64,000 nucleotides of DNA from positions 30,976,707 to 31,040,706 of the forward strand of contig JAWZYU010000025.1 of the NCBI GenBank assembly GCA_038380435.1, written 5' to 3'. The notes beneath the pieces are model-generated. The model was not told where the DNA came from, made no database searches, and saw only the letters and a list, made by a program, of their open reading frames with translations. Source of the stretch: Ryuthela nishihirai (taxonomy: Eukaryota > Arthropoda > Arachnida > Araneae > Heptathelidae). Within the stretch, counting starts at the first letter, position 1. Each line of letters opens with the position of its first letter. Positions 13,900-42,835 of this stretch are shown here, one piece after another. The position numbers were made by a program, and so were the translations under genes.

Positions 13900-14019
13900 A
13901 TAAATACCCCTCAAGCAGCTGCTTGCCACAAAGGTCTGACAGGAGCCTGTCAGTTTATAGGCCATAGTAGAAGGTCTGAGAGGATGGCAGGACCTCAGCA
14001 GAAAAACGACACATACATC
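13900..14019 (-). mobile_element. SINE2, 3' half, interrupted by the Polinton
   Basis: Contains the palindrome caagcagctgcttg and 'ggtctgacaggagcctgtcag', then ends at 'cgacacatacatc', where the Polinton begins. The other half resumes at 31287. Uninterrupted copies at 44326-44503 and 62155-62330 show the same junction sequence without the element. Confidence 0.93.
14014..14019. repeat. 6-bp target-site duplication, left copy
   Basis: The tacatc immediately before the left TIR is repeated as 31287-31292 directly after the right TIR. Six base pairs is the known Polinton/Maverick target duplication length. Confidence 0.95.
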
Positions 14020-14203
14020 AGTAGTATCATCACAACCTACCGATTCCCCTTTGCACAGTGCTTTCCCCCCTATGTCGCAATCATCCACGTTGTCTTCTTG
14101 ACTTGGACCCCCTATGTCGCAATCGACCGGAAATTGACCTGTGCTGGGCCACGTTGCCTTCTGAACTTTGACCCTTATATTGCAATCAACAGGAAATTGA
14201 CCC
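14020..14203 (+). repeat. left terminal inverted repeat of the Polinton
   Basis: About 184 bp matching the reverse complement of 31103-31286 with about 8 differences, five of them in the innermost 25 bp. It contains short internal repeats of the type 'ctatgtcgcaatcgaccgg'. In protein-primed systems the ends are replication origins; that role here is inference. Confidence 0.94.
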
Positions 14204-14229
14204 TGGCGTTGCAACTGTCACGGTATTAA

Positions 14230-15220
14230 TAATTCATAATTCATAATTAATAATACATAATTAAAAATTTCTCCCCTTTTAACCCCTGGCGCTATCTAGT
14301 GCCTATGAGGAACACTATTTTCCCAAAAAAAATCCTTATTTTAACTCTAATTTTAAGCCCTCCTTCTCGAGCAGTCTCGATTTTTCTTTATTTCAGACCC
14401 CCCCCCCCCAATGGTTGACTTATATTTTAAACCCTCCACTTGCAGACCACCTGGTTGACCTATATTTTAAGCCCTACCTATATTTTAAGGCCCCCTCGGA
14501 TTACAAGTCTCAGAATAATTCCACAGAAAAGGATGACACAAGTCTCAATTGTAAAAATCAACTCGCAAAGTTGTATTCTTATTAATTAAAACCCTTTCTA
14601 TTAAAAGTTACCTCTATTAAAAATCTTTTGGTGTTCATTTTGCCAGGACTGCTAAACGATTCCCTTTTATTAAAACTCTGGTATTTATTTTTTCCAACCC
14701 CGTTAATCGATCCCTTAGTAAATAAAAACTCTCACTTACCTTTATTAAAATCATCCAGCGCTCGTAATAAATCGGTTTAATCGGGGGAAAAAAAATCATT
14801 CTATCGCTAGCGTACCTCCACGTTAATTTCAGGGGAAAAGCCTCATCGGATCCAAGGTTCACGTATTTTACTAGAAGAATGACACAGTAACTGTTCCACA
14901 GAAAAATTAATAAAATTTGGTTTAAATTATTCGTAGGACTTGTATATAAGATCTAGCTTTAGACGTTCACCAGCCTAAAAGTTTACAAAGTCCGTTATCG
15001 GTGTATCGGAAATCGTACGTTTCCTGTAGACATCCTTCAGATCGCTTATTAGTGGGGTAGCAACAGCACTTTCGCCACATCACACGATATGGTGCAATCC
15101 TTTATCAGCTGGAAGGTCAAATGTCCAGCGCTTCACTGTGTCTGCATTTGACACTGATAAGGTTTAAAAATAGATGATTCCTAGAATCCACATTGCACAA
15201 CGGTCAAAGTCCAGTGGGGG
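14230..15220. other. Polinton left non-coding arm
   Basis: AT-rich sequence between the left TIR and the polymerase promoter. It includes repeated 'aattcataatt' motifs near 14230-14270, a C-run at 14399-14409 and repeated 'ctattaaaa' motifs at 14590-14760. I see no convincing gene; a 75-residue minus-strand frame at 14635-14862 has no recognisable features. Confidence 0.5.
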
Positions 15221-15226
15221 AGGGTG

Positions 15227-15234
15227 TATATAAA
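15227..15234 (+). promoter_or_regulatory. TATA box upstream of the polymerase gene
   Basis: A perfect TATATAAA lies 115 bp before the proposed start codon at 15349. Initiation about 30 bp downstream would give a 5' leader of roughly 90 nt. It is the only strong TATA box near the 5' end of the gene. Confidence 0.65.
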
Positions 15235-15348
15235 CACCGACTTCTCAGCGACTGTCACTGTGTTCTTCATCTGTCAGTTTGCGACCTGTCAACCCTGCTC
15301 GCTCTCCTTCTCTACCTGCTAGCTCGTCGATCCTCTTCTCTACCTGAG

Positions 15349-18300
15349 ATGTCCACTATGCGAGAATTTTCCTGTGCTGGATCCTCAACTGATACCAGGT
15401 AAATGAAATTTTATTTAATATTGTCCTTAAGTTGCTCAACTGAATCACCTACTAACGTACAATATAGATTTTTATATTTGTTTCTAACTAGTAAAGTCAT
15501 TCTAAATGATAATTTTCAAACTTTAGTTATATTTTTGTTGATCAAGCTAGCAAAGTGTGCTTTTACTACAACTGTTCAATATAGATTTTTTTTTTTTATT
15601 TGTTTCTACCCTGTCATTTTATTCTAAATGATAATTTTCAAACTTTAGTTAGATTTTTTGATCAAGCTAGTCAAGTGTGCTTTTACTACAACTGTTCAAT
15701 ATAGATTTTTTTTTTTATTTGTTTCTACCCTGTCATTTTATTCTAAATGATAATTTTCAAACTTTAGTTAGATTTTTTTTTTGATCAAGCTAGTCAAGCG
15801 TGTTTTTATTACAACTGTTCAATATAGATTTTTATATTTGTTTCTACCCTGTCATTTTATTCTAAAACGATAATTTTTCAAACTTTAGTTAAATATTAGA
15901 TTTTTTGATCAAGCTAGTAAAGTGTGCCTTTATTACAACATAACTGTTCTAAGTTAAAAAAAACATGTAAAGTACTGCATATTCTGAGACTAAATTATCT
16001 ATCCAGATCTGATGCTGGTCCTTCCACTGATGCCGACTGCTTTGAAGAGCTACTCACGTCAGTGCGCACTCTAGAGGCGGCAGCCAAAAGACCTCCTACA
16101 CCTGAGCTTCCTGAACAGTCGAAGCGCCTTTGCATACTCCAACAAGGTGGCAGGGAATTAAGGCAAAGGACATCGAAACTTTCCCTCAAGAAGCGTCGTC
16201 AATCCACTGTCGCAGCGGGTATGGGAAATCCCTACGTCCCCGTCGTACCTTCAACTGCAACCAGGTAAATGAAATTTTATTTAATATTGCCCTTAAGGCG
16301 CTCAATTGAATCACTTACTAACGTACAATATAGAGTTTTATATTTGTTTTTACCCTGTCATTTTATTCTATAAATGTTAATTTTCAAACTTTAGTTAGAT
16401 TTTTTGCTCAAGCTAGTAAACTATGCTTTTATTACAACTGTTCAATGTATTTGTTTTCTACCCTTGTAAAACCATTTTACTTTTTTTTTTATTCTAAATG
16501 ATAATTTTCAAACTTTAGTTAGTTTTCTGCTCATGCTAGTCAAGTGTGGTTTTATTACAACTGTTCGGTTCAGTATAGATTTTTCTAACTAGTAAAATCA
16601 TTTTAGTCTAAATGATAATTTTCAAACTTTAGTTACTTAGTTTTTGATCAAGTTAGCAAACTGAAGCATATTGGTTTTTCATTTTCTGTTCTAAGATAAA
16701 AACGTGTAAAGTACTGCATATTCTGAGACTAAATTATCTATCCAGGTCTATCCCTTCCACTGGTGCCGGAACCTCCAGCGTTCGTGTTCCCGTCTCCTCC
16801 AACATAAGGACACCATTCACTATCGCCGCTGGTACCGGACCCTCCAGCGTTCGTGTTCCCGTCTCCACCGGCATAAGGACACCATTCACTATCGCCGCTG
16901 GTACCGGACCCTCCAGCGTTCGTGTTCCCGTCTCCTTCGACATAAGGACACCATTCACTATCGCCGCTGGTGCCGGACCCTCGAGCGTTCGTGTTCCCGA
17001 CATAAGGACACCATTCACTATCGCCGCTGGTACCTCCACCGCTACCAGGTAAATGTAATTTTATTTAATGTTGCCCTTAAGGCGCTCAACTGTACCACAT
17101 ACTAACGTTCAATATAGAGTTTTATATTTGTATCTGTTTTTCTAACTAGTAAAGTCATTTTATTCTAAATGATAATTTTCAAACTTTAGTTAGATTTTTT
17201 TTTTTTGATCAAGCTAGTCAAGTGTGTTTTTTTACAACTGTTCAGTTCAATATAGATTTTTTTTTTATTTGTTTCTACCCTCTCATTTTATTCTAAACGA
17301 TAATTTTCAAACTTTAGTTAGATTTTTTTTTTTTGATCAAGCTAGTCAAGTGTGCTTTTTTACAACTGTTCAGTTCAATATAGATTTCTCTACCATGTAA
17401 AGTCATTTTACTTTTTTTATTCTAAATGATAATTTTCAAACTTTAGTTAGATTTTTTTTTTTGATCAAGCTAGCAAAGTGTGCTTTTATTACAACTGTTC
17501 AGTTCAATATAAATTTCTCTACCATGTAAAGTCATTTTACTTTTTTTTATTCTAAACGATAATTTTCAAACTTTAGTTAAATATTAGATTTTTTGATCAA
17601 GCTAGTCAAGTGTGCTTTTTTTTTTTTACAACTGTTCAGTTCAATATAGATTTTTTTATTTGTTTCGACCCTGTCATTTTACTTTTTTTTTTTATTCTAA
17701 ACGATAATTTTCAAACTTTAGTTAGATTTTTTGATCAAGCTAGTCAAGTGTGCTTTTACTACAACTGTTCAATATAGATTTTTTTTTTATTTGTTTCTAC
17801 CCTGTCATTTTATTCTAAACGATAATTTTCAAACTTTAGTTAGATTTTTTGATCAAGCTAGTCAAGTGTGCTTTTACTACAACTGTTCAATATAGATTTG
17901 TTTCTAACTAGTAAAGTCATTCTAAATGATAATTTTCAAACTTTAGTTAGATTTTTTTTTTTGATCAAGCTAGCAAAGTGTGCTTTTATTACAACTGTTC
18001 AGTTCAATATAGATTTCTCTACCATGTAAAGTCATTTTACTTTTTTTATTCTAAACGATAATTTTCAAACTTTAGTTAAATATTAGATTTTTTGATCAAG
18101 CTAGTCAAGTGTGCTTTTTTTTTTTTACAACTGTTTAGTTCAATATAGATTTTTTTATTTGTTTCGACCCTGTCATTTTACTTTTTTTTTTTATTCTAAA
18201 CGATAATTTTCAAACTTTAGTTAGATTTTTTGATCAAGCTAGTTAAGTGTGCTTTTACTACAACTGTTCAATATAGATTTTTTTTTTATTTGTTTCTACC

Positions 18301-21300
18301 CTGTCATTTTACTTTTTTTTTTATTCTAAACGATAATTTTCAAACTTTAGTTAGATTTTTTGATCAAGCTAGTCAAGTGTGCTTTTACTACAACTGTTCA
18401 ATATAGATTTTTTTTTTATTTGTTTCTACCCTGTCATTTTATTCTAAACGATAATTTTCAAACTTTAGTTAGATTTTTTGATCAAGCTAGTCAAGCGTGT
18501 TTTTACTACAACTGTTCAATATAGATTTTTTTTTATTTGTTTCTACCCTGTCATTTTATTCTAAACGATAATTTTCAAACTTTAGTTAGATTTTTTGATC
18601 AAGCTAGTCAAGTGTGCTTTTATTACAACTGTTCAGTTCAATGTATTTGTTTCTACCCTGTCATTTTTATTCTAAATGATAATTTTCAAACTTTAGTTAG
18701 ATTTTTTGATCAAGTTAGCAAACTGAAGCATATTGGTTTTTCATTTTCTGTTCTAAGATAAAAACTTGTAAAGTACTACATATTCTGAAAAATAAATTAT
18801 CTTTCTAGGTCCGCATTCTCCAACGTTCCTGTCAGTGGATTCTCCAATGTTCCTGTCAGTGGATTCTCCAACGTTCCTGTCAGCTCTACAGAGTCTCCCC
18901 ACTTCACAGTGTCGCACACTCGGCGGTACAACTCGAAAAAATTCAAGACAGAATTCATCTCCACGAGTGTGCGACTTGGAGGTATGGAGAATGTGGAACC
19001 TTATAATTTCCTTCCGGTCCTACACGACCTGCACGAGAAAATGTTGGCTGAAGTCGTCCCCACAGGGGAGTATAGCCATGTTCGGCTGTGTTTACGCTCC
19101 CGGGATTTGAAAAACCCCGTCAACTTGGCTCTTATTCGGCGTAATGCCCTGACGGGGGAGAGATTCATGGCTGCACTAGACAAAGTAGTGCAGTCAAATG
19201 AGTCTCTCGGTCCCGGGAGCGAGCTGGAGTTTGACTTCGTTTGTGCCAACCTGGACCGGGTCGGTAGCGGTGGAGATGGAAGGCGCACAGGTCCCGAGAC
19301 TCGTCGTATCGCTGACGTCCAGTCTTTCATCAACAATAAGAAGGCTGTCACAAAAATTGTAAATCGTGACAACATCTGTTTAGCAAGAGCTCTCGTCGTC
19401 GCACGAGAGCTTTGCTTAAAAAATAAAGGGTTGGCAAACAACTACATCAAAATTGCTGATTATCGCTACCCTTTACAACGCCAGGAAGCGCGTCAACTTC
19501 ACTTGGATGCGGGTATTCCCGAGGGTCCCTGTGGACTCCCGGAAGTACATCTCTTCCAAGCGCACCTGACACAGTTCAGGATTGTTGTGTATTCTGCTGA
19601 CGACGCCTTCCTTCCCATCTTCATTGGTCCCGAAGGTGGGGACAACCTTTATTTGTTGTTTAGTGCAGGGCATTACGACGTGATTACTAAACCATCAGGG
19701 TTTTTCGGAGTTAAGGAGTTCTGTCACATTTGTTTAAAGGGGTCTAACAACGGGCACGTTTGCAGAGGGACCTGTAACAGGTGCCTGTCAACCGATGTGG
19801 TTCATGCAGGGGAGCTGTTGCTCTGCACGGTGTGTTGTGTGTATTTGCGCGGGGCTGAATGCTTTCAGGCGCATCTGCTGAAGGCATGTCAGACGCAACA
19901 TCGCTGCGTTAAGTGCATCAGCTTGTACGATCCCCTGAAAAAGCACGTTTGTAAGGTTGACACCTTAAAATTCGTCGAGCCCTGCAAAATTGACCCTGTC
20001 GGTCAGACTTACCTCTACTTTGACGTAGAGACTGTGCAGTGTGCCGACGGGTTGCTGAAACCGATACTATGTGTGGTCACATACCAAGTGGACGACGAGT
20101 GGGTCTATGCTTCATTCCCGGAAACGGACGCCTTTATGGATTGGATTCTCGCCGAAGAACGTCCCGGAGTTCAAAGATTCAAGGACGCCACAGTCCTCGC
20201 ACATAATCTGAAAGGCTTTGATGGCATGTTCATCATTAGTTACCTGTACAGAAAATTTTTAAAACCGGATCTCGTGTTCGATGGATCTAAGATTTTAGGT
20301 ATCTTTTTACCTGGCCTTAAAATAAGGTTCATTGACACGTTGTCCTTTATTCAGGCTCCTCTTCGATCATTCACGAAGACCTTCAACTTGGAGACGGTGA
20401 AAGGCTTTTTCCCCTTTAAATTCGTGAAGGAGGAAAATCTACAGTATGCAGGACCCATCCCTGATCGGCTTTTTTTCCAGCCGGAAGACATGGAGCCTGA
20501 AACTCTGTCAGCATTCAACGAGTGGTATGCCACAGCAAGCCTTGAACCCTGGGATTTTCAACAGCAGCTTCTGTATTACTGCAAGGCAGATACAGAGTTG
20601 TTGCGGCGAGGCGCCCAAGCTTTCCGTGAGGAATTTTTAAATCTCACAGGCGTAGACCCATTTGCACGTGACCTGACTATTGCTGGTGCTTGTCTTCGAA
20701 TTTTCCGTGGGAAGTTTCTGCAAAAGAATACCCTCGGTGTGTGTCCCGCCCAAGGGTATTCGGCGAGTAACGACCGGCAGTCCTTGAAAGCTCTCGCATG
20801 GTTAGAGTATGAGGCTTCCAAGGACAATATCGTAATTCAAACTGCGCGATCACCCGGAGGTGAATATAAGATAGGGCAGTACAAATTAGACGGCGTGTGC
20901 CACAGTACCCGTTGTTATTACGAGTTTTTAGGTTGTTACTATCATCACTGTTTGAAATGTTTCAAACCTGAAAAAATAGATCAGCGCACGAGAAAGCCAT
21001 TTGGTCTGCTAAACACCCGGACCATGGATCGTCTTGAGACCTTGAAAGTGCTGATGAACGGGTACACATGCAAAATTATGTGGGAGCACGAATTCGACGA
21101 GTTAATGCGCAACAACTCACCCGTCGCATTAATTTATAAATCCGTCGAGCCTATCAGGCGTATAGGAGCCCGTGACTACCTCTACGGAGGGCGCGTGGAG
21201 GTGTTTTCCATCTTTGCATCGGCGGGCCTAGGATGTAGCCTTAACTACGTTGATTACAACAGCCTGTACCCTTATGTTTGCAAGAAGGCTCCATTCGGTA

Positions 21301-22577
21301 AAGGTCACCCGGTTCGGATCACCTCTGATTTCGCCACGGACCTCGACCACTATTTTGGTATTGCACACGCCACACTGTTAGCCCCCGACGATTTGTTCAT
21401 CCCTGTACTGCCCTACAGGTGTAATGGGAAGCTGCTTTTCCCCCTTTGCAGGAGCTGTGCAGATGGTCAGCTGGCACCCCCTTGTCAGCACACCGTGAAC
21501 CAGCGCGCATTGACAGGATCTTGGCCAACGTTCGAAATTTACGCTGCGATGCGTGCTGGATACAAACTTCTTCAATTCCACGACGTGTGGCATTTTAACA
21601 CCATCCTGCAATATGATCCCGCAACAAAAAAGGGAGGTGTCTATGCTGGGTACATAGATACTTTTCTGGGGCTGAAGCAGCGCTACTCCGGGTTTCCCCC
21701 TGACGTGCAGACCGAGGAGCAAAAGGAAGCCTTCTGTGAGGCCTTCTTCCAGGCGGAGGGGGTTCGGATCCTCCCCTCGGAAGTTGAAAAAAACAACCTT
21801 AAGCGTACACTTTCCAAGGTCTCGCTTAATTCGTCATGGGGGAAGCATGCGCAGAACATGAGTCGAACCCAGACGACCATTGTGAGTTGTCCTGTCAAGT
21901 ACATGGAACTCTTGACGGACGCATCGCTAGTCATCACTGACGTCGCTGTTATCAGTGATCAGGCCGTGCTTGTCACGCACAAGCCGGCGGAGTCTGCCAC
22001 TCCAGCGAACACCCGTGGAAGCCTGATTCTCGCCGCAATGGTGACGAGTCACGCCCGACTAAAGCTGTACGAGCTTCTATCAAAATTAGATAGTCGTGCA
22101 ATGTACTCGGACACGGATTCAGTAATTTATACAACGTCTCCTCGCGACACCTACACACCACCACAACATCCCTTTCTCGGAGGTCTCGTAGATGAAATTT
22201 CTTCAAAGTACGGCTCCGGTGTACACATCACTGACTATGTCAGCGCCGGAGCCAAAAGTTATGCCCTTCGGCTGAGCAACGGGGATGAAATTCTTCGCGC
22301 CAAGGGCATATCACTCACGAAGAAAAACCGGTGCACATACAATTTTGAACTACTGAAATCCATGGTGCTAGGGAACTCCCCAACCAGTGAGACCTTCGAA
22401 GTCCCTTTCAATGTAATTCGTAATAAAGTGGATGGGTCACTTACGAATAAGCCCATGGTGAAAAGGTTTAAGGCTAACCTAGATAAGCGGTATCTCAGCT
22501 CGGGTTCAACTCTCACTGTACCTTATGGTTACAATGACCTGGGCCTGGATACCCTTATCCAACTCATGGATGAGTAA
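15349..22577 (+). CDS. polB: protein-primed family B DNA polymerase, four exons
   Basis: Replicative polymerase of the Polinton. I read exons at 15349-15398, 16007-16264, 16746-17048 and 18809-22577 (1,459 residues). Each donor is AG|GTAAAT, each acceptor ends in CAG or TAG, and every junction is phase 2, so the frame stays open throughout. Exon 4 alone holds the enzyme. It has a Cys/His pair in an OTU-like arrangement (Cys at 19377, 'GHYDVI' at about 19670) and a Cys-rich zinc-finger-like stretch (19720-19970). The exonuclease motifs are FDVET (about 20020), HNLKGFDGMF (about 20205) and YYCKAD (about 20575). The polymerase motifs are A DYNSLYP (about 21250), B NSSWGKH (about 21830) and C YSDTDS (about 22100). 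Upstream exons are low-complexity, with a basic KKRRQS stretch in exon 2 and 22-residue repeats in exon 3. The exon-4 frame is certain. The upstream exons are inferred from splice signals and phase; initiation inside exon 4 is the alternative. Confidence 0.9.
15399..16006 (+). repeat. intron 1 of polB with four ~115-bp repeats
   Basis: Donor 'ccag|gtaaatgaaattttattta', acceptor 'ttatctatccag|'. The interior holds four copies of a T-rich unit containing 'ttttcaaactttagttag' and 'tgatcaagctag' (near 15538, 15659, 15781, 15907). Both ends are homologous to introns 2 and 3. Confidence 0.8.
16265..16745 (+). repeat. intron 2 of polB with three ~115-bp repeats
   Basis: Starts and ends with the same sequences as intron 1 and has three diverged repeat units (near 16401, 16528 and 16638). 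Confidence 0.8.
16746..17048 (+). repeat. polB exon 3 made of 66-bp in-frame repeats
   Basis: About four and a half copies of a unit encoding a 22-residue repeat that includes 'IRTPFTIAAG' and 'SSVRVP'. The last full copy is shortened by 12 bp, keeping the frame. The length is a multiple of three and the junctions are phase 2, so adding or losing the exon would not shift the frame. It resembles a disordered linker. No function can be assigned. Confidence 0.75.
17049..18808 (+). repeat. intron 3 of polB with 13 ~115-bp repeats
   Basis: A 1.76-kb intron with 13 copies of the unit ('tgatcaag(c/t)tag' near 17207, 17335, 17461, 17598, 17732, 17849, 17962, 18099, 18231, 18362, 18479, 18596, 18707). 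Each unit has T-runs and a 'caaactttag' that resembles a splice acceptor. Exon 4 starts with three copies of a 24-bp in-frame repeat (18813-18885). Confidence 0.8.
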
Positions 22578-22870
22578 ATGTACAGTTTTCAACTTATTTA
22601 TTTCATATTACACCTTTATTTATTTCATTGTACAGTTTTCAACTTATTTATTTCATATTACACCTTTATTTATTTCATTGTACAGTTTTCAACTTATTTA
22701 TTTCATATTACACCTTTATTTATTTTATATTACACCTTTATTTATTTCATTGTACAGTTTTCAACTTATTTATTTCATATTACACCTTTATTACATTGTA
22801 CAGTTTTCAACTTATTTATTACATCTTTATTTATTACACCTTTATTTATTATTTCACTGTACGCCTTTTA
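22578..22870. repeat. 50-bp tandem repeats after polB
   Basis: The unit 'tgtacagttttcaacttatt' plus 30 bp recurs at 22579, 22629, 22679, 22751 and 22797, starting directly after the polymerase stop codon. Overlapping open frames (22525-23046 and others) only read this low-complexity DNA. Confidence 0.9.
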
Positions 22871-23053
22871 TTTCAATATCCTTAATGGATCTTAATTTAT
22901 CACGCGTAATGACCTTGCACTCGGCGTCGTCAGCAGTTTTTGAAGCTTGTATTTTTGAAACCTACAATATGTTACTGTCCAGCATTGGATATGTGAAACC
23001 AACAGTGGTTATGTCATGTGAAAGCAACAGTGGATCTGTCATGTAAATTTTTT

Positions 23054-23059
23054 AATAAA
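23054..23059 (+). terminator. poly(A) signal for polB
   Basis: The first AATAAA downstream of the polymerase stop that lies outside the tandem repeats, about 480 nt past the stop. Confidence 0.4.
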
Positions 23060-23405
23060 AAAGGTTTCAAAAAATCCGTCTCTTTATTTCTCAGAACTGG
23101 AAGACACTATGGTGGGAGAAAGCACGAGGTAACTTTGTTTTTCAGGTGCTCCGTAAGTCTTATCAGTGATCTGCACAATGCGCTGCTCCCCTCCAAGTCT
23201 CGCTGCTGCAGCAGCATTCTCATTTCCCCGCCCATCGACACTAACGCCCTCTGCTGTACTCCCGAGTGTAGCAGCACTCGTACAACTGCGCCCAGTCATG
23301 CAGATCACTTCCGGATGTCAAACATTGAATGAACTATCAGTGTGAAAACATTGAATGGGAAGAGACATAAAAATGACAAAAGGCATATTATCAGTTTTAC
23401 TTTCT

Positions 23406-23411
23406 TTTATT
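23406..23411 (-). terminator. poly(A) signal for the leftward gene block
   Basis: AATAAA on the minus strand (TTTATT on plus), about 80 nt beyond the stop codon of the last leftward gene at 23491. Confidence 0.45.
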
Positions 23412-23490
23412 GGATACAGATTTTTAATACATGGTTTTTTAACACAAGTCTTCAAGCACACAAGTCTTGGAAAGTTTTTTACAGATATTT

Positions 23491-23775
23491 TCAATACGCC
23501 GTCCACTCGGATAATTTTCTTTTCTTACGTCGGACGGGAACAGCAATGTCTTTTGGGGGCCGCTCTTCAGCTATATGATTTCTGGGAATGTTGACTTTTA
23601 CTTCCTGTGGAGTGTCAAGCTGTTTTGAGAATAATAAATAATTTTTCAAAGCAGTCAGATATTTTTCAGACTTATCGTCAGCATCACCAGACTCTAATAT
23701 TTTCTTCATCTCTGAGTCTAAATCACACACTTTTTTTCTTATGTTTCTCCTCTGCACTGCTTTCACTGAAATCAT
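23491..23775 (-). CDS. small basic Polinton protein, 94 residues
   Basis: Last gene of the leftward block. The first half is charged and probably helical. The C-terminus is basic (RRKKRKLSEW), like a nuclear-localisation or DNA-binding tail. Its ATG overlaps the stop of the upstream gene as ATGA. I do not recognise a family. Position and basic tail suggest a minor virion or core protein, but this is inference. The poly(A) signal at 23406 follows it. Confidence 0.65.
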   Translation of the reverse strand: MISVKAVQRRNIRKKVCDLDSEMKKILESGDADDKSEKYLTALKNYLLFSKQLDTPQEVKVNIPRNHIAEERPPKDIAVPVRRKKRKLSEWTAY

Positions 23776-24095
23776 TTTTTTCTAAATAACGATACCAGCA
23801 GGGGGAGGGCAGCAGTCAATAGTGGTATAATGAACCCTGAACCACGCTGCAGGAGATGCTTCTTGTGGCGTAAAGATGCACGTTTGGATGCTAGACTCCT
23901 TATGACCGTCTTGTGCTGGCGTAAATTCTTTAATACTCGATGGGAGACAGGTATATTGCCTTTTAAGAAATTGGAACACACTTCACATAGAGCATACATC
24001 TGGGGGTCGGAGATGTGCTTCATCAGAGCTGCACGCTGCTTTCCCCCTAGCTTTGGCAAGCACTGAAGGAACGGGCCTTGAGATTTAACTTTCAT
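23772..24095 (-). CDS. small Polinton protein with hydrophobic C-terminus, 107 residues
   Basis: Family recurrent in Polintons and adintoviruses. It has a 'GGKQRAAL' motif near the N-terminus, 'LKGNIPVS' in the middle, a basic stretch (KRASLRHKKH), then 'GSGFIIPLL' and a hydrophobic tail ending in FRKK. I chose the start at 24095 because its ATG overlaps the end of the ATPase gene by 11 nt, like the neighbouring junctions; the frame is open to an ATG at 24143. Related proteins have been compared with small adenoviral core or membrane-active proteins. A role in membrane disruption or DNA condensation is plausible but not shown. Confidence 0.75.
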   Translation of the reverse strand: MKVKSQGPFLQCLPKLGGKQRAALMKHISDPQMYALCEVCSNFLKGNIPVSHRVLKNLRQHKTVIRSLASKRASLRHKKHLLQRGSGFIIPLLTAALPLLVSLFRKK

Positions 24096-24711
24096 TTGGA
24101 ACGTAAAGTATTTCGGGTTCTTCTGATGGAAGAATCTTTGCACGGAGCCTTTCAGTATCTAACGTTCTGGGATGAAGGTCAACACACAAATAGCCACAGG
24201 TTGCTTGTGTAGCTAACCTATAAGCATCCGTCAGGAGTTTAGATTGATGGGGGTATACTTGTCTCGCCAGGTGAGTTATTTGTGAAGCATCCCGACAGTT
24301 GCGAAATAAAAACATGTAGTGAGCATTGAGCGATATAGTCCTCGAATGTCTTCCCTTTAAAAACAGATTTTGTAATATCAGGACAATCGTGATATTTTTA
24401 TGATGACCACCACGAATAAACAATTGTGATATGCGTTCGCTGGCTACAGACTGTTCCATCAAGTCATCCAGTACCAGAAGTGTAGGTCTGAGGGGATCAA
24501 ATTCCAGATCCGTAGGTAGTCCTTCATAAAATTCCACCGTTTTCTTGAAGGGTTCAAAGGCAGGCTGCCACTCCCCGTAGCAGTAAACGACACGTTGGGG
24601 TGGGGGTTCGAATACTTGAGCTGCTTCTCTGATGAGTTTCAGAGTGAAAGTCGTCTTTCCACACTGTGAAGGAGCAGCAATTATAATATTCGAAGGAGTT
24701 CGGAGAGCCAT
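24085..24711 (-). CDS. genome-packaging ATPase (FtsK/HerA-like)
   Basis: Predicted to drive DNA into the capsid. The Walker A motif is APSQCGKT at residues 13-20 and the Walker B is LLVLDD ending at residue 83. A later 'LILQN' fits the sensor strand of this superfamily. The length, 208 residues, is normal for Polinton and adintovirus ATPases. It overlaps the protease gene upstream by 31 nt and the small protein downstream by 11 nt. No disruption is seen. Confidence 0.9.
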   Translation of the reverse strand: MALRTPSNIIIAAPSQCGKTTFTLKLIREAAQVFEPPPQRVVYCYGEWQPAFEPFKKTVEFYEGLPTDLEFDPLRPTLLVLDDLMEQSVASERISQLFIRGGHHKNITIVLILQNLFLKGRHSRTISLNAHYMFLFRNCRDASQITHLARQVYPHQSKLLTDAYRLATQATCGYLCVDLHPRTLDTERLRAKILPSEEPEILYVPNES

Positions 24712-25127
24712 CGCAACACCATGCAGTCGTTAAAGTCTACTCGACACGTGTAATCACGATGCAGTACTGTGGGAAGAGTCGAACCACACGCTCTTTTAAA
24801 CAGGAAATACAGACAGTGAGCACCGCAAGTGTCTCCCAGGGGGTCCTGCAGAGGTATTGAAGGATGTAAGACGTGACGTATGCCTAGTCGACTGTAGTAT
24901 TCTTGCATGGCGACATCGGGACTCGTACCTAGGGGGTCAAAGTGATCCACGTGCATTCCTTTCTTGTAAACTGCTATCCAGTGGGCTCCAGGCATGGAGG
25001 ACGGATCGGTATTGTAGATAAACAAGGCTTCTGATTGGGTGATTCTGCTAGGTAGTCTGTCACGGGGGAACACTCCAAGACTTGTGGGTAACATCGAAAG
25101 GATGGATTCTAGTTGATAGGTATTCAT
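24681..25127 (-). CDS. adenain-like maturation cysteine protease
   Basis: Adenovirus-type (C5/C48-related) protease that would cleave capsid and core precursors. Expected catalytic residues are all present: His49 in GAHW, Asp64 in FDPLG, Gln94 in PLQDP and Cys101 in DTCGAHC. The length is 148 residues, somewhat shorter than adenain (about 200). The start codon overlaps the capsid gene stop as ATGA. Confidence 0.9.
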   Translation of the reverse strand: MNTYQLESILSMLPTSLGVFPRDRLPSRITQSEALFIYNTDPSSMPGAHWIAVYKKGMHVDHFDPLGTSPDVAMQEYYSRLGIRHVLHPSIPLQDPLGDTCGAHCLYFLFKRACGSTLPTVLHRDYTCRVDFNDCMVLRWLSELLRIL

Positions 25128-26419
25128 GAGCTGTAGTCAAACAGGACTTTACGATCCAATGGGATTTCCAGCAAATTCTGATATTCGGCATACAGGATCA
25201 CAGTGACCGATGCGGATAGCGGCTTGGCAAACTTTAATTCGACTCTCACACTCCCACTCTTTATTAAAGAAAACACTTGATTGCATTCACGTTGCTCGGG
25301 GGTCAATTGGAATCCAAACAATGTAAAACCTTCTCCATAGGCTTTTCGCGATAAGTTAATACCACTATCGGATTTCCAGGCATCCACAGCTTCCAATAAT
25401 CCTTGGTAACAGCGGAGATAGCGCCCATTCGCAAAGTCTGGTGCGTAGGACTGGTGATCGCTGTCAATGTGAAGGCTGATGTAGTTTAAGTCGAAATGTT
25501 GGAAGTTGAAGGGATTTTTTTCGTACAATCCATTCAGGCTGGTGCTTTCCACCATACCCAGTACCAGACGTACGGGGAGCTGACCTAGAAATAAATTGTC
25601 ACGGTTCACACTCGTCAGTCCCGAAGCAATGGAAAACATACGTAAATCCGTTCTTCGCAGAGGGTACTTGGCACTCTCTGAACTCAGCAGGCGAGCGTGT
25701 GCGAGGATGACACTCGAAGTGGGTTTGACTTTACGCACGAAAAATTCAGCTTCGTGTATCTGTACTTTGTAAGAGGGGTCTGCTTCACCTGTCACGAGAC
25801 AGAATTCGGGTTTGGATCTCAATAAACGCAGTCTCAGGTCGACTTGATTGAGCAGGTAACGATCTTGATTAAACAGGTCGGCGTGGATCCACGAGATGAG
25901 TTCGATACCTGTTGGTTTGACGTAGCCCTTGCGCTGATGCCATCCCTCGTTCTCCCGACTGGTCAGTTCCATTTTACCGGGGGTGTCGAGGTACCAGAGC
26001 GAGGTGCCGAGCTGGCTTCGTGTGGCATCGGTACCGTAATTCAATAGAGTCTCCAGGTATGCCCTGTAGGGGTACAGGGTGTGAGAAGCACTCACTAGGT
26101 GATCATTGAGGAAGACGTCTACCTGGCTGAAGAGGGCGTGGAAGAAATGATTGCAGGGAGCGATCACTTCTGACGGTGCTGTACCATCGGATTTTACAAT
26201 TTTCAAGACGAGACGTAGGTGACATCGGGACAGATCAATGTAATCGTCTGTTCCTTTCACGATGAATTCAAGTGGAGCATTACCTTCCAAGGAAGCCACA
26301 GGTAAATAATTGACATAGCAGCCTCTTTCTAATTGTGAGACTGTGGGAGGGATCAGAAACAGGTCCAGTTCTGAATTGGCACAGTCGCCAGAATCAGCGT
26401 GAATTTTCTGAATGCTCAT
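25124..26419 (-). CDS. major capsid protein (hexon-like, double jelly roll)
   Basis: 431 residues. It belongs to the Polinton/adintovirus major capsid family, often seen in animal genome annotation as an uncharacterised 'F54H12.2-like' protein. N-terminal 'TVSQLERGCYVNYLPV' and the 'FFHALFSQVDVFLN' region are typical. It is expected to form the icosahedral shell as trimers. It sits between the core protein and protease genes with ATGA overlaps on both sides. Frame intact. Confidence 0.9.
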   Translation of the reverse strand: MSIQKIHADSGDCANSELDLFLIPPTVSQLERGCYVNYLPVASLEGNAPLEFIVKGTDDYIDLSRCHLRLVLKIVKSDGTAPSEVIAPCNHFFHALFSQVDVFLNDHLVSASHTLYPYRAYLETLLNYGTDATRSQLGTSLWYLDTPGKMELTSRENEGWHQRKGYVKPTGIELISWIHADLFNQDRYLLNQVDLRLRLLRSKPEFCLVTGEADPSYKVQIHEAEFFVRKVKPTSSVILAHARLLSSESAKYPLRRTDLRMFSIASGLTSVNRDNLFLGQLPVRLVLGMVESTSLNGLYEKNPFNFQHFDLNYISLHIDSDHQSYAPDFANGRYLRCYQGLLEAVDAWKSDSGINLSRKAYGEGFTLFGFQLTPEQRECNQVFSLIKSGSVRVELKFAKPLSASVTVILYAEYQNLLEIPLDRKVLFDYSS

Positions 26420-26805
26420 GATGAAAACACGTCCTGCACAGTACAGTGTCTCTTCACTTTATGAACCTTGGGATGCTGACGGCGGCGTTTTATGCCTTTC
26501 CCTCCCTGCAGCTTTGAACTGGCACGTTGTAAGAGGGCAGCGCCCGCTTCACGGAGTCCCGCTTTGGCTGCAGATTTGAAATTTTGCCCCTGGGACATCT
26601 CTGAAACGAACCGTAGCCCACCCTTACGTAGGGTGGACAGCGCAGGTCGTACGAGAGGGCTGATGAAACGTCCAATAGTGGCAAAGATGCTTCCTAGCCC
26701 ATCGCCTCTCTGATAACGAGGACCGCGGAACACACCCTTCCCCGTTTGGCTCTTGTAGTAGCTCACGTAGGCATCTGCAGAAGGGGGAACGAATTTAACC
26801 CTCAT
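26416..26805 (-). CDS. virion core protein, pVI/pX-like
   Basis: 129 residues, basic. The N-terminal half has the Gly-rich 'YQRGDGLGSIFATIGRFISP' block common to Polinton core proteins next to penton and capsid genes. The C-terminus is strongly basic (KGIKRRRQHPKVHKVKRH), fitting DNA binding or nuclear import. It overlaps penton by 11 nt and the capsid gene by 4 nt. A GG site inside ('GLG', 'LQGGKG') could be a protease target; that is inference. Confidence 0.8.
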   Translation of the reverse strand: MRVKFVPPSADAYVSYYKSQTGKGVFRGPRYQRGDGLGSIFATIGRFISPLVRPALSTLRKGGLRFVSEMSQGQNFKSAAKAGLREAGAALLQRASSKLQGGKGIKRRRQHPKVHKVKRHCTVQDVFSS

Positions 26806-27832
26806 GACGGAAATGTAACTTGACTAAAACTTTACCGAATTTAAAATGCAGAGGTTCTCCGGTGTCAGTACGAAGGAAGATTCTCACACTCTCGAAACTG
26901 TTCCTTGCAAGGGGGTAGTAATCAGGTTGCTGATACACTGCAACAATGGCTTCGTTATTACTGGTTCTGACGGCGGGGTTCACGACACGCAACAGTTCGC
27001 CGTGAGTATCACCTAACAACTGAGGCGCAATCAGGTCTGAATACAAATAAATACCATACATTCCTCTGTTCATATCGATGGGATAGTCACCCTGGACTTT
27101 ATTCAGTGGTATATCTAATTTAGTGATTCCTAGCATGTCTCCTAATCCGGGGTTCGATCGAGGAAATTTAATGTAATGCGACTTGTCTGTATCCATCAAT
27201 ATGGTGTGATCTGCCTGTTGCTTGAAACGGTAAGCTTTTCTCAGCCTGTAGGGTAACATCTGGTTCATTGCATCGAATAATGATTCGGCTGTTTCGTATC
27301 GTCCGTGGGGTACCTTTCGTTCTTGGAAACTACCTGGGGGTATCACGTAGAAATAACATTCGTCATCTATGTCGAACGTTGGTGTATTGCAAAGTTTGCT
27401 GGCAAATCGTTGGTGGAAGGGTTTGTCAACTTCACCCTCCCCGATACACAGAAGTTTACCGAAATTCGTTTTAGGAAACATCAAACCGTATCCCTCACTC
27501 GGTTTGAATACCCAGTAACCGCTGTTATAGGAAACTATTATTTCTTTTGGGAGTTGGGTGGTGAGGAGAGACAACAGTTCCATTCGAGTTATTTTACCCT
27601 GTTTAAGTTTGATTTTCCTGTATTCTTCGGTGGGAGCGTAATATTCATACGTGTCATTAGAACCGTCCACATTGTACCAGCTCACGGGTAAGTGAACTTC
27701 TGCTAGTCCCACTTTCCATTTTCCGCTCAGTCTTAGGGGTTGTGCTAGACGAACCGTGAAATCAGTCTGCGAATTGTTTGGGTAAATATTCTGACTAGCC
27801 GTGGAGGGTAGGGTCAGGTAGAAACTATCCAT
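26795..27832 (-). CDS. penton (minor capsid) protein
   Basis: 345 residues. The N-terminal 'FYLTLPSTASQNIYPNNS' and 'KVGLAEVHLPVSWYNV' blocks are the signature of Polinton penton proteins, a single-jelly-roll vertex protein. The length is normal for the family. It overlaps integrase by 19 nt upstream and the core protein by 11 nt downstream. Intact. Confidence 0.9.
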   Translation of the reverse strand: MDSFYLTLPSTASQNIYPNNSQTDFTVRLAQPLRLSGKWKVGLAEVHLPVSWYNVDGSNDTYEYYAPTEEYRKIKLKQGKITRMELLSLLTTQLPKEIIVSYNSGYWVFKPSEGYGLMFPKTNFGKLLCIGEGEVDKPFHQRFASKLCNTPTFDIDDECYFYVIPPGSFQERKVPHGRYETAESLFDAMNQMLPYRLRKAYRFKQQADHTILMDTDKSHYIKFPRSNPGLGDMLGITKLDIPLNKVQGDYPIDMNRGMYGIYLYSDLIAPQLLGDTHGELLRVVNPAVRTSNNEAIVAVYQQPDYYPLARNSFESVRIFLRTDTGEPLHFKFGKVLVKLHFRHEG

Positions 27833-28878
27833 TTTTTAGGGATCCAGGAAGGTTTGGGATAACCACGAAATTTGACCAGTGCCTTGTGACCTTTACGCTC
27901 GATTATTTTCTCGACCGTGTAAAGTTCGGGTTCTGTCACTTTTTGAAGTTCCGATTTATAGAATGTACCTTTCAACACTTCTCCCTCTGAATCCCGTATG
28001 ACATACACAGGGGGTTGTCGCTGTAACACCTTGTCGACTATAAATATTTCTTCGGTCCACAAATGCGTTCCTGCCTTCTTGAAGGGTACTTTTACACTGG
28101 CTAGTCGAACCGTGTCCCCCACTTTAAATGCTGGTTTTTCTTTTACTACGGTCGGATTGCGATAGAGTCGAACCCACACAACGTCTTCATTGCGTAAGGT
28201 CACGTCCTTGGGAGCCATATCGTGGGCACTGTGAACGGTGGCATTGTATCCCCGTACAACGCGCGGTAGCACGTCCAGGTAGCGGTAGGTGTTATTGCGT
28301 GTATAATATCTACCCAGTCTCTCGCGTAGGGTACGATTCCATCTCTCCACCAAAGCTGCTTTTTTGTCAGAGTAGGTGGCAAAGAACCGAATACCTTTCT
28401 TTTTCAGGAATTTCTGGAACACTCTGTTGGTAAATTCCGTACCCTGATCCGTATTTAAATTCATTGGAGACCGACCCTTGGAAAGGATTTTTTTGAAAGC
28501 CAATACCATTTCTTTCCCTGTTTTAGCCTTCATGGCAACCGCCCACCCGTACCTCGAGAACAGATCGATGACTGTTAATATGTAGCGATACCCGTCATTG
28601 AAGCGAGTTAGATTTTTCACCACCATGAGATCGGCTTGCCATTGTTCGTCTAACCCTGTGACGTAAACTTTGTTACGGGGGAACTTTCTGCGAACAGGTT
28701 TATGTAGCGTGTAGGCAGGTTGCTTTTCTAACCATTCACGGACGAGTTTGAGTGGTAGTCCCGTATTCTGTGCTAACTTTTTTACACTACCGAATCCTCT
28801 TTCGGGGTCGAAATAATTGGACTCCAAAGTTTTATTTTCTGCTGCACCCAGGCGTCGTACCCCACCAGGTTTTGCCAT
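27814..28878 (-). CDS. retroviral-type integrase with C-terminal chromodomain
   Basis: 354 residues. The N-terminal helical zone (YFDPERGFGSVKKL) is followed by the rve core with catalytic Asp83 (QADLM), Asp144 (NTDQGTEF) and Glu178 (ALVERW). An SH3-like stretch (FKVGDTVRL) comes next and a chromodomain occupies about residues 320-354 (YTVEKIIERKGHKALVKF, then SWIP). The enzyme would insert the linear genome using the TIR ends. The 6-bp target duplication at the borders fits its activity. Its first 97 nt overlap the upstream gene. No later Met would keep the family N-terminus, so this start is required. Confidence 0.93.
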   Translation of the reverse strand: MAKPGGVRRLGAAENKTLESNYFDPERGFGSVKKLAQNTGLPLKLVREWLEKQPAYTLHKPVRRKFPRNKVYVTGLDEQWQADLMVVKNLTRFNDGYRYILTVIDLFSRYGWAVAMKAKTGKEMVLAFKKILSKGRSPMNLNTDQGTEFTNRVFQKFLKKKGIRFFATYSDKKAALVERWNRTLRERLGRYYTRNNTYRYLDVLPRVVRGYNATVHSAHDMAPKDVTLRNEDVVWVRLYRNPTVVKEKPAFKVGDTVRLASVKVPFKKAGTHLWTEEIFIVDKVLQRQPPVYVIRDSEGEVLKGTFYKSELQKVTEPELYTVEKIIERKGHKALVKFRGYPKPSWIPKKWIVST

Positions 28879-29108
28879 TGATGTAGCGAAAGTGTAACAC
28901 CTGTCACTGTAGGAACGTCACCTATAAACTGTCTGATGTCAACTGTTAAGTTACACACACGAATTTTGTATTCCCCATCTAAGGCTTTTGACTCTCCACA
29001 CTGAATATTTTTACTAGGAGCTACAATTTCTAATACAAGCACTGCTATCGTTAACACTGTCACGATTACACTACCCACACTAGCTAACACCTTCTTTCTC
29101 CTATCCAT
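28782..29108 (-). CDS. membrane-anchored PC4-like protein, 108 residues
   Basis: The N-terminus is MDRRKKVLAS followed by one strong hydrophobic helix (about residues 10-31). The rest matches the single-strand-binding fold of transcription coactivator PC4/p15 in pattern: a 'VDIRQF' strand, a short turn, then 'GVTLSLHQWQNL'. The same signature is found twice in the gene at 29164. A tail-out DNA- or RNA-binding domain on a membrane anchor is unusual. The TATA box at 29148 precedes it, making it the first gene of the nine-gene chain. The PC4 assignment rests on motif reading only. Confidence 0.7.
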   Translation of the reverse strand: MDRRKKVLASVGSVIVTVLTIAVLVLEIVAPSKNIQCGESKALDGEYKIRVCNLTVDIRQFIGDVPTVTGVTLSLHQWQNLVGYDAWVQQKIKLWSPIISTPKEDSVV

Positions 29109-29147
29109 ACCAAGACTTAAATGACATTGGATGAAAAGACAGACACA

Positions 29148-29155
29148 TTATATAA
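29148..29155 (-). promoter_or_regulatory. TATA box for the leftward nine-gene chain
   Basis: TTATATAA, palindromic, 40 bp upstream of the ATG at 29108. No other TATA-like promoter is evident before the next eight genes, so a single transcript for the chain is likely. Confidence 0.65.
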
Positions 29156-29163
29156 GGTTACAA

Positions 29164-29958
29164 TTATTTATTTAATTTATACATTTCATTTTTTGCCTCG
29201 TCGACAATAGCGTTATATTTTAGATTGCAAACAAAACCAGAATCTACAAAATTCAACAGACCTCGTTTCCAGGCAGTATCCACAAATACCTGTGCTAAGG
29301 CATTAATGTCCAAGTCACCAGACCACCCTACGATAGTTGGTATTTTTTCTTCAGGTTGCAGTCCATCTAACGGTATCACACGTATAAGTTCTTGCTGAAA
29401 AATATTCACCAGCAGCGGGTAAACACAATCGGGATCGTCGAAAACAGGACCCAGTAGGAAAGGTCGAACGGATTCTGAATGTTCCATAATAGCTGTACGG
29501 AGTTGGTGATCTTTGGGAGTCCCGCACACACTATGCACAATGCGCATCACCTCGTCTAAGTGAATAGCCAGCGTGAACCACTGCGAAGCATTCAGTGTTA
29601 TACAACGTCTCACAACACGGAACTGTAGAGTTCTTTGGTCTGCTGATTCTTTGATGAATTCGACACAACGTTCGCCATCCACAGTTCGATACATGTAGAC
29701 ACGTAAACCATGCGTCACGTACCATGTCTGTTGATCGGGGCCAATTTTCACTTGATCCTCTATGTGGGGGACCGTGGCACACAAAGCCTCCCATTCAGGT
29801 ATGGAGAGGCTAACCCCTGCAAGTGTAGGGTAGATGAGTTCACAATTTTCATATTTCTTGTAGCGGCGTACGTGCACAGAAAACTTATTTTTGAACAGTG
29901 TAGGTACAACGTAAACATCTTCACCGAGACACCACGCATCTGGATTGCTAGGCTGCAT
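29164..29958 (-). CDS. protein with two PC4-like domains
   Basis: 264 residues from the second ATG (29958); an ATG 24 nt earlier (29982) is possible. I prefer 29958 because the TATA-like TTAAATA at 29991-29997 would place the transcript start between the two. The first domain has 'FSVHVRRYKKYENCELIYP' then 'GVSLSIPEWEALC' and 'HIEDQV', close to the pattern of PC4/p15. The second is weaker: 'TLQFRVVRRCITLNASQWFTL'. PC4 proteins bind single-stranded DNA and modulate transcription, so a replication or transcription cofactor is a reasonable guess. The AATAAA at 29167-29172 is the last codons before the stop. Confidence 0.75.
   Translation of the reverse strand: MQPSNPDAWCLGEDVYVVPTLFKNKFSVHVRRYKKYENCELIYPTLAGVSLSIPEWEALCATVPHIEDQVKIGPDQQTWYVTHGLRVYMYRTVDGERCVEFIKESADQRTLQFRVVRRCITLNASQWFTLAIHLDEVMRIVHSVCGTPKDHQLRTAIMEHSESVRPFLLGPVFDDPDCVYPLLVNIFQQELIRVIPLDGLQPEEKIPTIVGWSGDLDINALAQVFVDTAWKRGLLNFVDSGFVCNLKYNAIVDEAKNEMYKLNK
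29167..29172 (-). terminator. poly(A) signal overlapping the end of a coding region
   Basis: AATAAA on the minus strand lies within the last two codons, directly before the stop codon at 29164-29166. The TATA box for the next gene starts 9 bp further on. Confidence 0.55.
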
Positions 29959-29990
29959 CGTGAACAATGACGCACACAGCACTCGCTCCC

Positions 29991-29997
29991 TATTTAA
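29991..29997 (-). promoter_or_regulatory. TATA-like element of the PC4-like gene
   Basis: TTAAATA on the minus strand, about 35 bp upstream of the preferred start codon at 29958. Confidence 0.35.
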
Positions 29998-30027
29998 CTA
30001 GAGAGCCGCACCACCTGGGACGACCAA

Positions 30028-30603
30028 TCAGGAACGATCTGATAAGCAAGTGTTTGTTGGGACATGTTCTCGACGACGATCGATCCATCCGAAGAAAGCA
30101 GCTGTTTCGGCTAAAGAGCAGTGGACGTCCTCTCCGGTGTGATATCCGCACTCGAACTCGGAAACTTTTGGGAGATCACAATATTTGGGGCAGCCGTAAA
30201 GTTCGAGATTAACACTGGGCAGATTTAATTGTTCCAAGAGATTTCTTTCCACAGTACCTCCTTTGTAACCCACCACAGTAGCTTCTTCAGTACGTGCAAG
30301 TTTGTAAGCATATTTCACGATGTTAGGAACGTGATGTAACGACCACACCTTTTCACGAAGCAGAGGACGAAAGGGTAGACCTATCACATATTTAGATACG
30401 TAGCTGACTGTCCTTCTGTCTTTTACTGACAAAGGTTGGTGTTGCCGAAGATTGAAACGGTAGACACCACATTTCCCATTCAGAGTTGCATATCCAAGTT
30501 CGCGCACTAAGAAACGACCATTTACATGGAAACCGTCGAGATCTAGAACCATACAGATGTTTTGCATGGTTGCACTAGTTCGAGTATCTGGAGACAAAAA
30601 CAC
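30028..30603 (-). CDS. putative DEDD-like nuclease, 191 residues
   Basis: It begins with 'MVLDLDGF' and an Arg-Glu-Leu-Gly-Tyr segment. A middle 'KDRRT' region follows, then 'VVGYKGGTVERNLL', 'NLELYGCPKYC' and finally 'CGYHTGEDVHCSLAE'. This arrangement recurs in uncharacterised proteins of arthropod genomes. The N-terminal Asp pair and C-terminal His/Glu look like the frame of a DEDD or RNase H-fold exonuclease. No biochemical role is known to me and the fold is inference. The start could also be the Met at 30567. It lies 18 nt after the upstream gene. Confidence 0.65.
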   Translation of the reverse strand: MFLSPDTRTSATMQNICMVLDLDGFHVNGRFLVRELGYATLNGKCGVYRFNLRQHQPLSVKDRRTVSYVSKYVIGLPFRPLLREKVWSLHHVPNIVKYAYKLARTEEATVVGYKGGTVERNLLEQLNLPSVNLELYGCPKYCDLPKVSEFECGYHTGEDVHCSLAETAAFFGWIDRRREHVPTNTCLSDRS

Positions 30604-30621
30604 TTGACGTCTTCACACAGG

Positions 30622-30975
30622 CTACAGACGTCTCTGTCGTTTACGTCTCAGAGCCTGAACGATGTTCTGCGGTAATCCCGGGGGCCAGGTTTCGGGCGGC
30701 TTCATCACCAGTGGTCCACGTAGTCTTGTAGGTGGTGGTGGGGTAGTGTCCTCCACGACAACAGCCCGTAGCATCGGACCACCAATCCCAGGTCGCGGCA
30801 ACATCTTAATAGTGACGGCTGGAGGTGGGGGTGGCGGTGGAGGAGGTGGCACAATCACAGGTCGACGTAGCAATCGACGAATACGCGTTCGAAAGTGTTG
30901 TGGATCGCTCTCGTAGCCGGAGTCTACATCACTCGTCCAATTATGACCAAAATCCAAGTTGTCGTCGTCGTCCAT
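30622..30975 (-). CDS. acidic, proline-rich protein with DSGxxS motif
   Basis: 117 residues. The N-terminus is acidic (MDDDDNLDF) and carries DSGYES at residues 18-23, matching the phosphodegron read by the F-box protein beta-TrCP. A run of ten prolines, a second 'TPPPPTRLRGP' and a basic C-terminus (ALRRKRQRRL) follow. It is the first leftward gene, with a TATA box 40 bp upstream close to the TIR, a position suited to early expression. No conserved fold. Its probably disordered nature means function cannot be inferred beyond the motif. Confidence 0.65.
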   Translation of the reverse strand: MDDDDNLDFGHNWTSDVDSGYESDPQHFRTRIRRLLRRPVIVPPPPPPPPPPAVTIKMLPRPGIGGPMLRAVVVEDTTPPPPTRLRGPLVMKPPETWPPGLPQNIVQALRRKRQRRL

Positions 30976-31015
30976 AACGTGTGGCTCAGAATAAATGTCA
31001 AACCTTTTTCAGCGG

Positions 31016-31022
31016 TTATATA
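31016..31022 (-). promoter_or_regulatory. TATA box near the right TIR
   Basis: TATATAA on the minus strand, 41 bp upstream of the ATG at 30975. It mirrors the rightward TATA box at 15227. Confidence 0.65.
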
Positions 31023-31102
31023 CAGCCAGAACCGTGACCTTGGGGGGGTTTACAAGGTACTTGGAAAATTACGAGACAATTTCCGGTCGATTGTGACGTA
31101 GG

Positions 31103-31286
31103 GGTCAATTTCCGGTCGATTGCGACATAGGGGTCAAAGTTCAGAAGGCAGCGTGGCCCAGCACAGGTCAATTTCCGGTCGATTGCGACATAGGGGGTCC
31201 AAGTCAAGAAGGCAACGTGGATGATTGCGACATAGGGGGGGAAAGCACTGTGCAAAGGGGGATCGGTAGGTTGTGATGATACTACT
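31103..31286 (-). repeat. right terminal inverted repeat of the Polinton
   Basis: Matches the left TIR over about 184 bp. Just inside it, at 31079-31200, a ~30-bp motif 'tttccggtcgattg.gac.ta' occurs three times, then once more in shortened form, so the terminal region is itself a small repeat array. Confidence 0.94.
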
Positions 31287-31372
31287 TACATCCATGCCTT
31301 ACCCGGGGCTCGAACCCAGGTCCCTTAGATCAGTAGCCAAGCGCGCTAACCACTCGGCCATGGGACGGCACT
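31287..31372 (-). mobile_element. SINE2, 5' (tRNA-like) half after the Polinton
   Basis: Starts with the second tacatc and contains the tRNA-like head (minus strand: 'ggccgagtggttagcgcgc' A-box region and 'gggttcgagcccc' B box). Together with 13900-14019 it restores a normal SINE2. Confidence 0.93.
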
Positions 31373-42780: not shown

Positions 42781-42835
42781 CGTGTTGTCACCCGCAACTT
42801 TTTCCTCTTCGAGGCATATGGTATGAACTTAAAAT

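Follow-up and report, generated by a model that had tools for sequence, protein, structure and literature searches.

The 64,000 nucleotides of the spider Ryuthela nishihirai analysed here (contig JAWZYU010000025.1, positions 30,976,707 to 31,040,706; the window) contain an adintovirus/Polinton provirus of 17,267 bp, at window positions 14020-31286. It is bounded by terminal inverted repeats (TIRs) of 184 bp on the left (14020-14203, + strand) and 185 bp on the right (31102-31286, - strand), which align with 8 mismatches and one indel and are 95% alike, and it is flanked on either side by the 6-bp target-site duplication (TSD) TACATC (14014-14019 and 31287-31292), a perfect match. The left TIR is no chance resemblance: in its own genome, 40 matches (the best 40 of 2058 candidates) were scored, and all are 96-100% identical. 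The insertion split a repeat, the right side of which resembles a tRNA-derived short interspersed nuclear element (SINE), and at a related empty site beside another element, L043, this repeat is unbroken and holds one diverged copy of the target. L043 and the window element (right flank 31287-31380) both lie in or beside copies of one tRNA-like (SINE-type) repeat. A reading made from the letters alone (the sequence-only reading) had described a structurally complete adintovirus/Polinton with open core genes, both TIRs, and a perfect 6-bp duplication. The identity is borne out by the polymerase, rve integrase, double-jelly-roll capsid protein, TIRs, and TSD, and the ends and duplication are as described; the genes are indeed open, with internal stops in none of the 13 predicted.

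A single gene, polB, lies on the + strand (18984-22577), encoding a DNA polymerase B of the protein-primed type; it has 1197 amino acids (aa) from the first ATG, or 1222 aa if translation starts at the GTG at 18909. The other 12 predicted genes lie on the - strand and, read from right to left, encode a proline-rich protein of 117 aa (30622-30975) and one of 191 aa (30028-30603), both unknown; a PC4-like (single-stranded-DNA-binding-type) protein of 272 aa (29164-29982); a 108-aa open reading frame (ORF; 28782-29108); the rve integrase (354 aa; 27814-28878); a 345-aa ORF that is a penton candidate by position only (26795-27832); a basic 129-aa ORF that, again by position only, may be a pVI/vertex-type minor protein (26416-26805); the major capsid protein (MCP; 431 aa; 25124-26419); a putative cysteine protease of the adenain type (148 aa; 24681-25127); a putative packaging ATPase of the A32/FtsK type (208 aa; 24085-24711); and two small unknown ORFs of 107 aa (23772-24095) and 94 aa (23491-23775). 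The left ~4.7 kb contains tandem arrays and has no long ORF. It includes the left-end DNA (14020-15196) and an AT-rich stretch (15469-18718) with arrays of ~118-bp and 69-bp units, the length of which probably varies among copies, to judge from element sizes. A further tandem array directly follows polB (22579-22850). The sequence-only reading passed over this left part, the 272-aa PC4-like gene, and the 108-aa ORF.

The sequence-only reading had also reported motifs of polymerase, integrase, protease, and ATPase. Catalytic-type motifs are present in all four; family-level matches are firm for two of the enzymes and fall short for the other two. The polymerase matches PF03175 (E 2.6e-42) and the integrase PF00665 (E 5.5e-15), both above the curated cutoffs, whereas the protease, with its H/D/C motifs, reaches 13.8 bits against adenovirus-type PF00770 (cutoff 21.3; E 0.046) and has no match in the PDB, and the ATPase, with its Walker-type motifs, reaches 18.5 bits against Pox_A32-type PF04665 (cutoff 22.8; E 0.0015). 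Exonuclease and polymerase motifs are both present in PolB. Of the terminal protein (TP) and OTU-like domains that PMC11071296 and PMC11071308 place at the N terminus of a Polinton/adintovirus PolB, the sole trace seen here is an OTU-like motif at residue 127. The C terminus of the integrase resembles a chromodomain by eye only, and among the Pfam matches listed at E<=0.01 there was no chromodomain.

Sequence comparison of the 431-aa protein returned 1593 homologues at E<=1e-3, the best at 47% identity, named only as uncharacterised animal proteins (e.g. F54H12.2-like). A model built on 27 sequences (mean predicted local distance difference test score, pLDDT, 84) gave 196 Foldseek matches at E<=0.001, led by the capsid proteins of Sputnik (E 9.8e-14), Singapore grouper iridovirus (1.0e-13), and mavirus (1.5e-13). 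The predicted structure shows this protein to be a double-jelly-roll MCP. Scans of viral contigs gave no confirmed locus for the MCP, the integrase, or an MCP alignment, and a single weak one for PolB (L015; 26% identity, E 5e-4); phage records gave no match to the integrase.

The 272-aa protein has three matches in the PDB at E<=1, all of them PC4 (best E 0.48). Together with the adjoining 108-aa ORF, which has a hydrophobic N terminus and a weak PC4-like match of its own, it forms a pair of neighbouring PC4-like ORFs (28782-29982), both scoring below the Pfam cutoff. The pair supplies a candidate for a protein that would bind single-stranded DNA when Polintons replicate.

The element is one of very many. 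Within this genome of 3.11 Gb, the 272-aa protein was scored at 142 loci (of 3479 candidates), all at >=94% identity; 140 are free of stops, and 23, the window's own included, encode an identical protein. The mean DNA identity of this gene among 17 window-like copies is 99.94%, and it is these last two figures that support the earlier suggestion that the copy is recent. The inner TIR occurs at 803 places in its left form (<=3 mismatches) and at 615 in its right form (<=2 mismatches), with no occurrence of either reversed control; the two counts cannot be subtracted from one another, because the mismatch limits differ. Thirteen of 14 window-type elements with both ends read have matching 6-bp TSDs, which differ from element to element, and their lengths, taken from match positions, are about 17.2-18.2 kb, with one of ~20.7 kb (C15). 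These sequences support a family that is young and of high copy number, and it is plausible that the window element can still move.

Selection was assessed in the MCP and integrase genes of 16 other copies, chosen by their position beside the PC4-like gene and not by their own sequence. No MCP copy has an indel (0/16), and 15 of the 16 integrase copies are likewise without one, none of these 15 having a stop. Shared variants, those present in at least two sequences, are predominantly synonymous in both genes, with 44 synonymous and 9 non-synonymous in the MCP (0.061 per site) and 22 and 5 in the integrase (0.067 per site), and the two do not differ (Fisher p 1.0). Singletons, seen once, are of a different composition (20 synonymous and 26 not in the MCP, 0.39; 16 and 28 in the integrase, 0.52), and the difference between shared and singleton variants holds in each gene (p 5e-5 and 2e-4, respectively). 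At the level of sequence variation, this demonstrates purifying selection of equal strength on capsid and integrase. Since the constraint on shared variants is alike in the two, spread depended on the capsid gene no less than on the integrase, and decay followed insertion. The PC4-like gene, in 20 copies ranked by their own protein score, has no stops and a ratio of 0.26.

Comparison of TIR columns among 13 window-type elements (C16b being left out) revealed that the repeat behaves differently along its length. Seven of the outer 24 columns vary among elements, yet in every element (13/13) the two ends agree at them, whereas in the inner columns (137-174) six differences between left and right recur in all 13 elements. 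This is suggestive of outermost ends that are copied from each other and of an inner TIR that is not. We had considered TIR-TIR divergence as a clock for insertion, and this was ruled out because the six inner differences recur in every element and so give no date.

More unusual than the window element itself is a class of palindromic elements elsewhere in the genome. These have the left end of the family on both sides and are giant palindromes of about 12-17 kb. Eight of the left-TIR matches turned out to be inverted pairs spaced by 12-17 kb and bounded on both sides by left-type DNA, and the ends of seven were read. Of 100 exact left ends in a separate listing, 42 make up 21 inverted pairs (spacing 11.8-16.8 kb), 39 stand as far from a PC4-like gene as a left end should, and 19 fall in neither group; no end is both paired and linked to the PC4-like gene. 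A matching 6-bp TSD was found in every left-left element with both ends resolved (7/7, 4/4, and 2/2, or 13/13), the second set being one of six elements of which four had both ends found. Palindromy was equally consistent, in 5/5 whole interiors compared piece against piece and in 6/6 and 2/2 centres (13/13 in all); the 13 interiors or centres tested and the 13 resolved end pairs overlap in ten elements. Leaving aside indels in repeats, substitutions between arms number 2 in 8.0 kb (C13), 0 in 7.0 kb (C32), 3 in 7.7 kb (C6b), and 1 in 8.2 kb (C7), a total of 6 in 30.8 kb, as against a divergence of 0.7-2.5% between different elements, from which it follows that the arms are homogenised.

One type of palindrome has no recognisable genes. 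It gave no match to any of the 13 predicted proteins of the window element, and the six pieces examined for ORFs held three, of 91-110 aa. What their arms have in common with the window element is ~0.5 kb of left end (14020-14497/14569) and a second block at 14543-15196, at 87-92% identity. Two types of centre occur in the gene-free class, and for neither type was a non-palindromic founder found. The junction of the type-1 centre is present at 51 places genome-wide, 48 of them exact, with none for the reversed control, and all seven type-1 centres tested are palindromic. An arm mismatch beside this centre recurs in five of the seven, which indicates that type-1 palindromes are inherited as palindromes. 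Their length of 12-17 kb approaches that of the autonomous element (about 17-18 kb) even though they have no genes requiring the room, which could reflect either a packaging size or common descent.

The fifth of the palindromes compared whole, at C6:27.90 Mb, is built from the window family's own left end. Over the first 1.42 kb its arms differ from each other by no substitutions and from the window by 1-2. Its turn lies within polB (19158-19208, + strand), at 6-nt inverted repeats (19158-19163 and 19203-19208): having reached 19208, the strand turns back, and the 39 nt between the repeats form a loop that contains an 8-bp stem. A growing strand whose 3' end folded back and served as its own primer should give such a product. 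A turn at a short inverted repeat was seen in this palindrome only, the other centres showing short loops.

These observations can be brought together in a scheme in which TP-primed strand displacement is inferred from the type of polymerase and from what PMC11071296, PMC11071308, and PMC4028283 say of adintoviruses and Polintons. Outside the chromosome, the element would exist as linear DNA replicated from its TP-primed ends by strand displacement, the PC4-like protein would coat the displaced single strand, and the integrase would insert the linear product. Should synthesis from the left end stall, the 3' end may fold back on a short inverted repeat and, with its own strand as template, be extended until the left end is reached again, generating a left-left palindrome. 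Such a molecule keeps an origin and an integrase end on either side and would therefore be replicable and insertable in trans. One lineage, with non-coding arms of its own, would then have become a stable, high-copy palindromic satellite.

In our assessment, the window holds a young multi-copy adintovirus/Polinton, and the palindromes are probably defective-genome-like satellites of it, arising by protein-primed fold-back replication and integrated in trans. A number of observations weigh against this account. The element is known here from genome sequence alone, with no free DNA, transcripts, or virions seen. Both ends could not be resolved for palindromes C5 and C17, and one window-type pair, C16b, has ends with no matching TSD. 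The tandem arrays of the C6 palindrome differ more between arms than its first 1.42 kb does (BLAST 93.6-98%). Only four terminal variants underlie the coupling of the outer ends among the 13 elements. One of the 16 MCP copies carries a stop, one of the 16 integrase copies a 1-bp gap, and the PC4-like gene shows no difference between its shared variants and its singletons (p 0.67). The 272-aa protein can be named PC4-like only, because its Pfam PC4 score is below the cutoff (21.0 of 25 bits, E 2.4e-4); none of 235 candidates in the protein collection reached E<=0.001, and a model made without an alignment had a pLDDT of 36 and no usable fold. The 345-aa ORF had no match to a penton (single jelly roll), leaving that assignment unconfirmed. 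Finally, arm likeness could have been kept through replication or by later conversion, and gene conversion after insertion could explain it.

This last point is central to a quite improbable alternative in which ordinary Polintons coexist with unrelated fold-back transposons that captured a TIR, the palindromes having arisen by chromosomal recombination or aberrant transposition and gene conversion having kept their arms identical. That palindrome arms undergo gene conversion is well established, the centre mismatch has been lost in two of the seven type-1 centres, and the greater part of the satellite arm resembles nothing in the window element. Against this, if two insertions had formed a palindrome on the chromosome, its TSDs could be unlike, yet those of all 13 resolved palindromes match; the arms and the window element have ~1.1 kb of left-end DNA in common; and the C6 palindrome consists of the window family's left end, turning at a 6-nt inverted repeat. 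That the palindromes are artefacts of assembly or library (hairpin reads or collapsed inverted copies) is scarcely credible. The assembly method is unknown and palindromic chimeric long reads do exist, but the outer ends are anchored in different flanks that end in the same 6 bp, many contigs carry the common centre junction, at 51 places in all against a control of 0, and different palindromes have different substitutions, present on both arms. We also think it unlikely that the element is only a transposon, its capsid genes mere passengers and its particles never made. The absence of any observed particle or transcript from a study of genome sequence would fit this, as would the lack of a confirmed relative in the viral-contig scans; shared variants in the MCP, however, are constrained like those of the integrase and unlike the singletons of either gene.

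The account of a young adintovirus with fold-back satellites can be taken a step further, tentatively and in the knowledge that the step is slightly more apt to fail than to hold. Animal adintoviruses may have palindromic satellites. These would be snap-back genomes that have lost all recognisable genes, remain near the helper genome in length, depend on the helper polymerase for copying and possibly on helper capsids for packing, and have multiplied in the germ line in the form of a family of giant integrated palindromes: a defective-interfering genome turned heritable provirus parasite.

Several further structures were encountered during the survey. Two right-right pairs (C1 111.03 Mb and C13 42.69 Mb) were considered as a second palindrome class and rejected as diverged, the C1 pair being self-inverted at 82% and the pieces of the C13 pair not showing such an inversion. 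Three right-type TIRs in one orientation, 4.37 kb apart (C4:82755572, 82759941, and 82764309), form a tandem array of right ends. An internally deleted relative of 2.39 kb, L104 (C9:4.818-4.8206 Mb), has 292-bp TIRs (99.3%) and a matching 6-bp TSD and carries DNA like window 30524-31221. Elsewhere in the window are long tandem arrays with units of 82 bp and 27 bp (56-5745 and 32795-34847), fragments of reverse transcriptase/RNase H (41524-42826, 45682-46605, and 55867-56412), and a tRNA-Thr (CGT) gene predicted by ARAGORN (57576-57649). Matches to the neighbouring reverse transcriptase reached only ~38-51%, and the best of them with a name were from insects.

The debate over whether animal Polintons have a stage as free linear DNA and as a particle still turns mainly on gene content. 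The present genome keeps evidence of two kinds, namely integrated fold-back genomes, of the form that a protein-primed copy would leave on stalling, and a capsid constrained like the integrase across a recent burst, and both are directly testable in one species. If the proposal is true, the palindromes would make up a new class of non-autonomous elements, very large in size, in which defective genomes are naturally recorded.

How does this system compare with those already described? In its PolB, rve integrase, double-jelly-roll capsid, TIRs, 6-bp TSD, and size, and in its weakly matching protease/ATPase-type genes, the window element resembles the adintoviruses and Polintons (Mavericks), which PMC11071296 and PMC4028283 define by these features and a length of 15-20 kb. 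It differs in its PC4-like gene and the hydrophobic 108-aa PC4-like ORF, neither of which is named in the passages of PMC11071296 and PMC4028283 consulted. It differs, too, in its very many near-identical copies and in the palindromic satellite class. Among the literature matches listed (titles and the starts of abstracts), there was no description of palindromic Polintons, and nothing matched PC4 together with Polinton. Adenoviruses produce left-end palindromic defective genomes, left-left inverted duplications of the kind expected of snap-back during protein-primed strand displacement; the spider palindromes, in contrast, are integrated in chromosomes with TSDs, and one lineage has been propagated as a family. 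Linear plasmids of the yeast pGKL1 type likewise have palindromic or hairpin deletion derivatives, an instance of a protein-primed replicon giving inverted dimers, but those are free plasmids with no integrase. With miniature inverted-repeat transposable elements and fold-back elements the satellites share a non-autonomous nature, the use of another element's ends, and a high copy number; what sets them apart is that they are near-perfect palindromes over their whole 12-17 kb, close to the length of the autonomous element itself.

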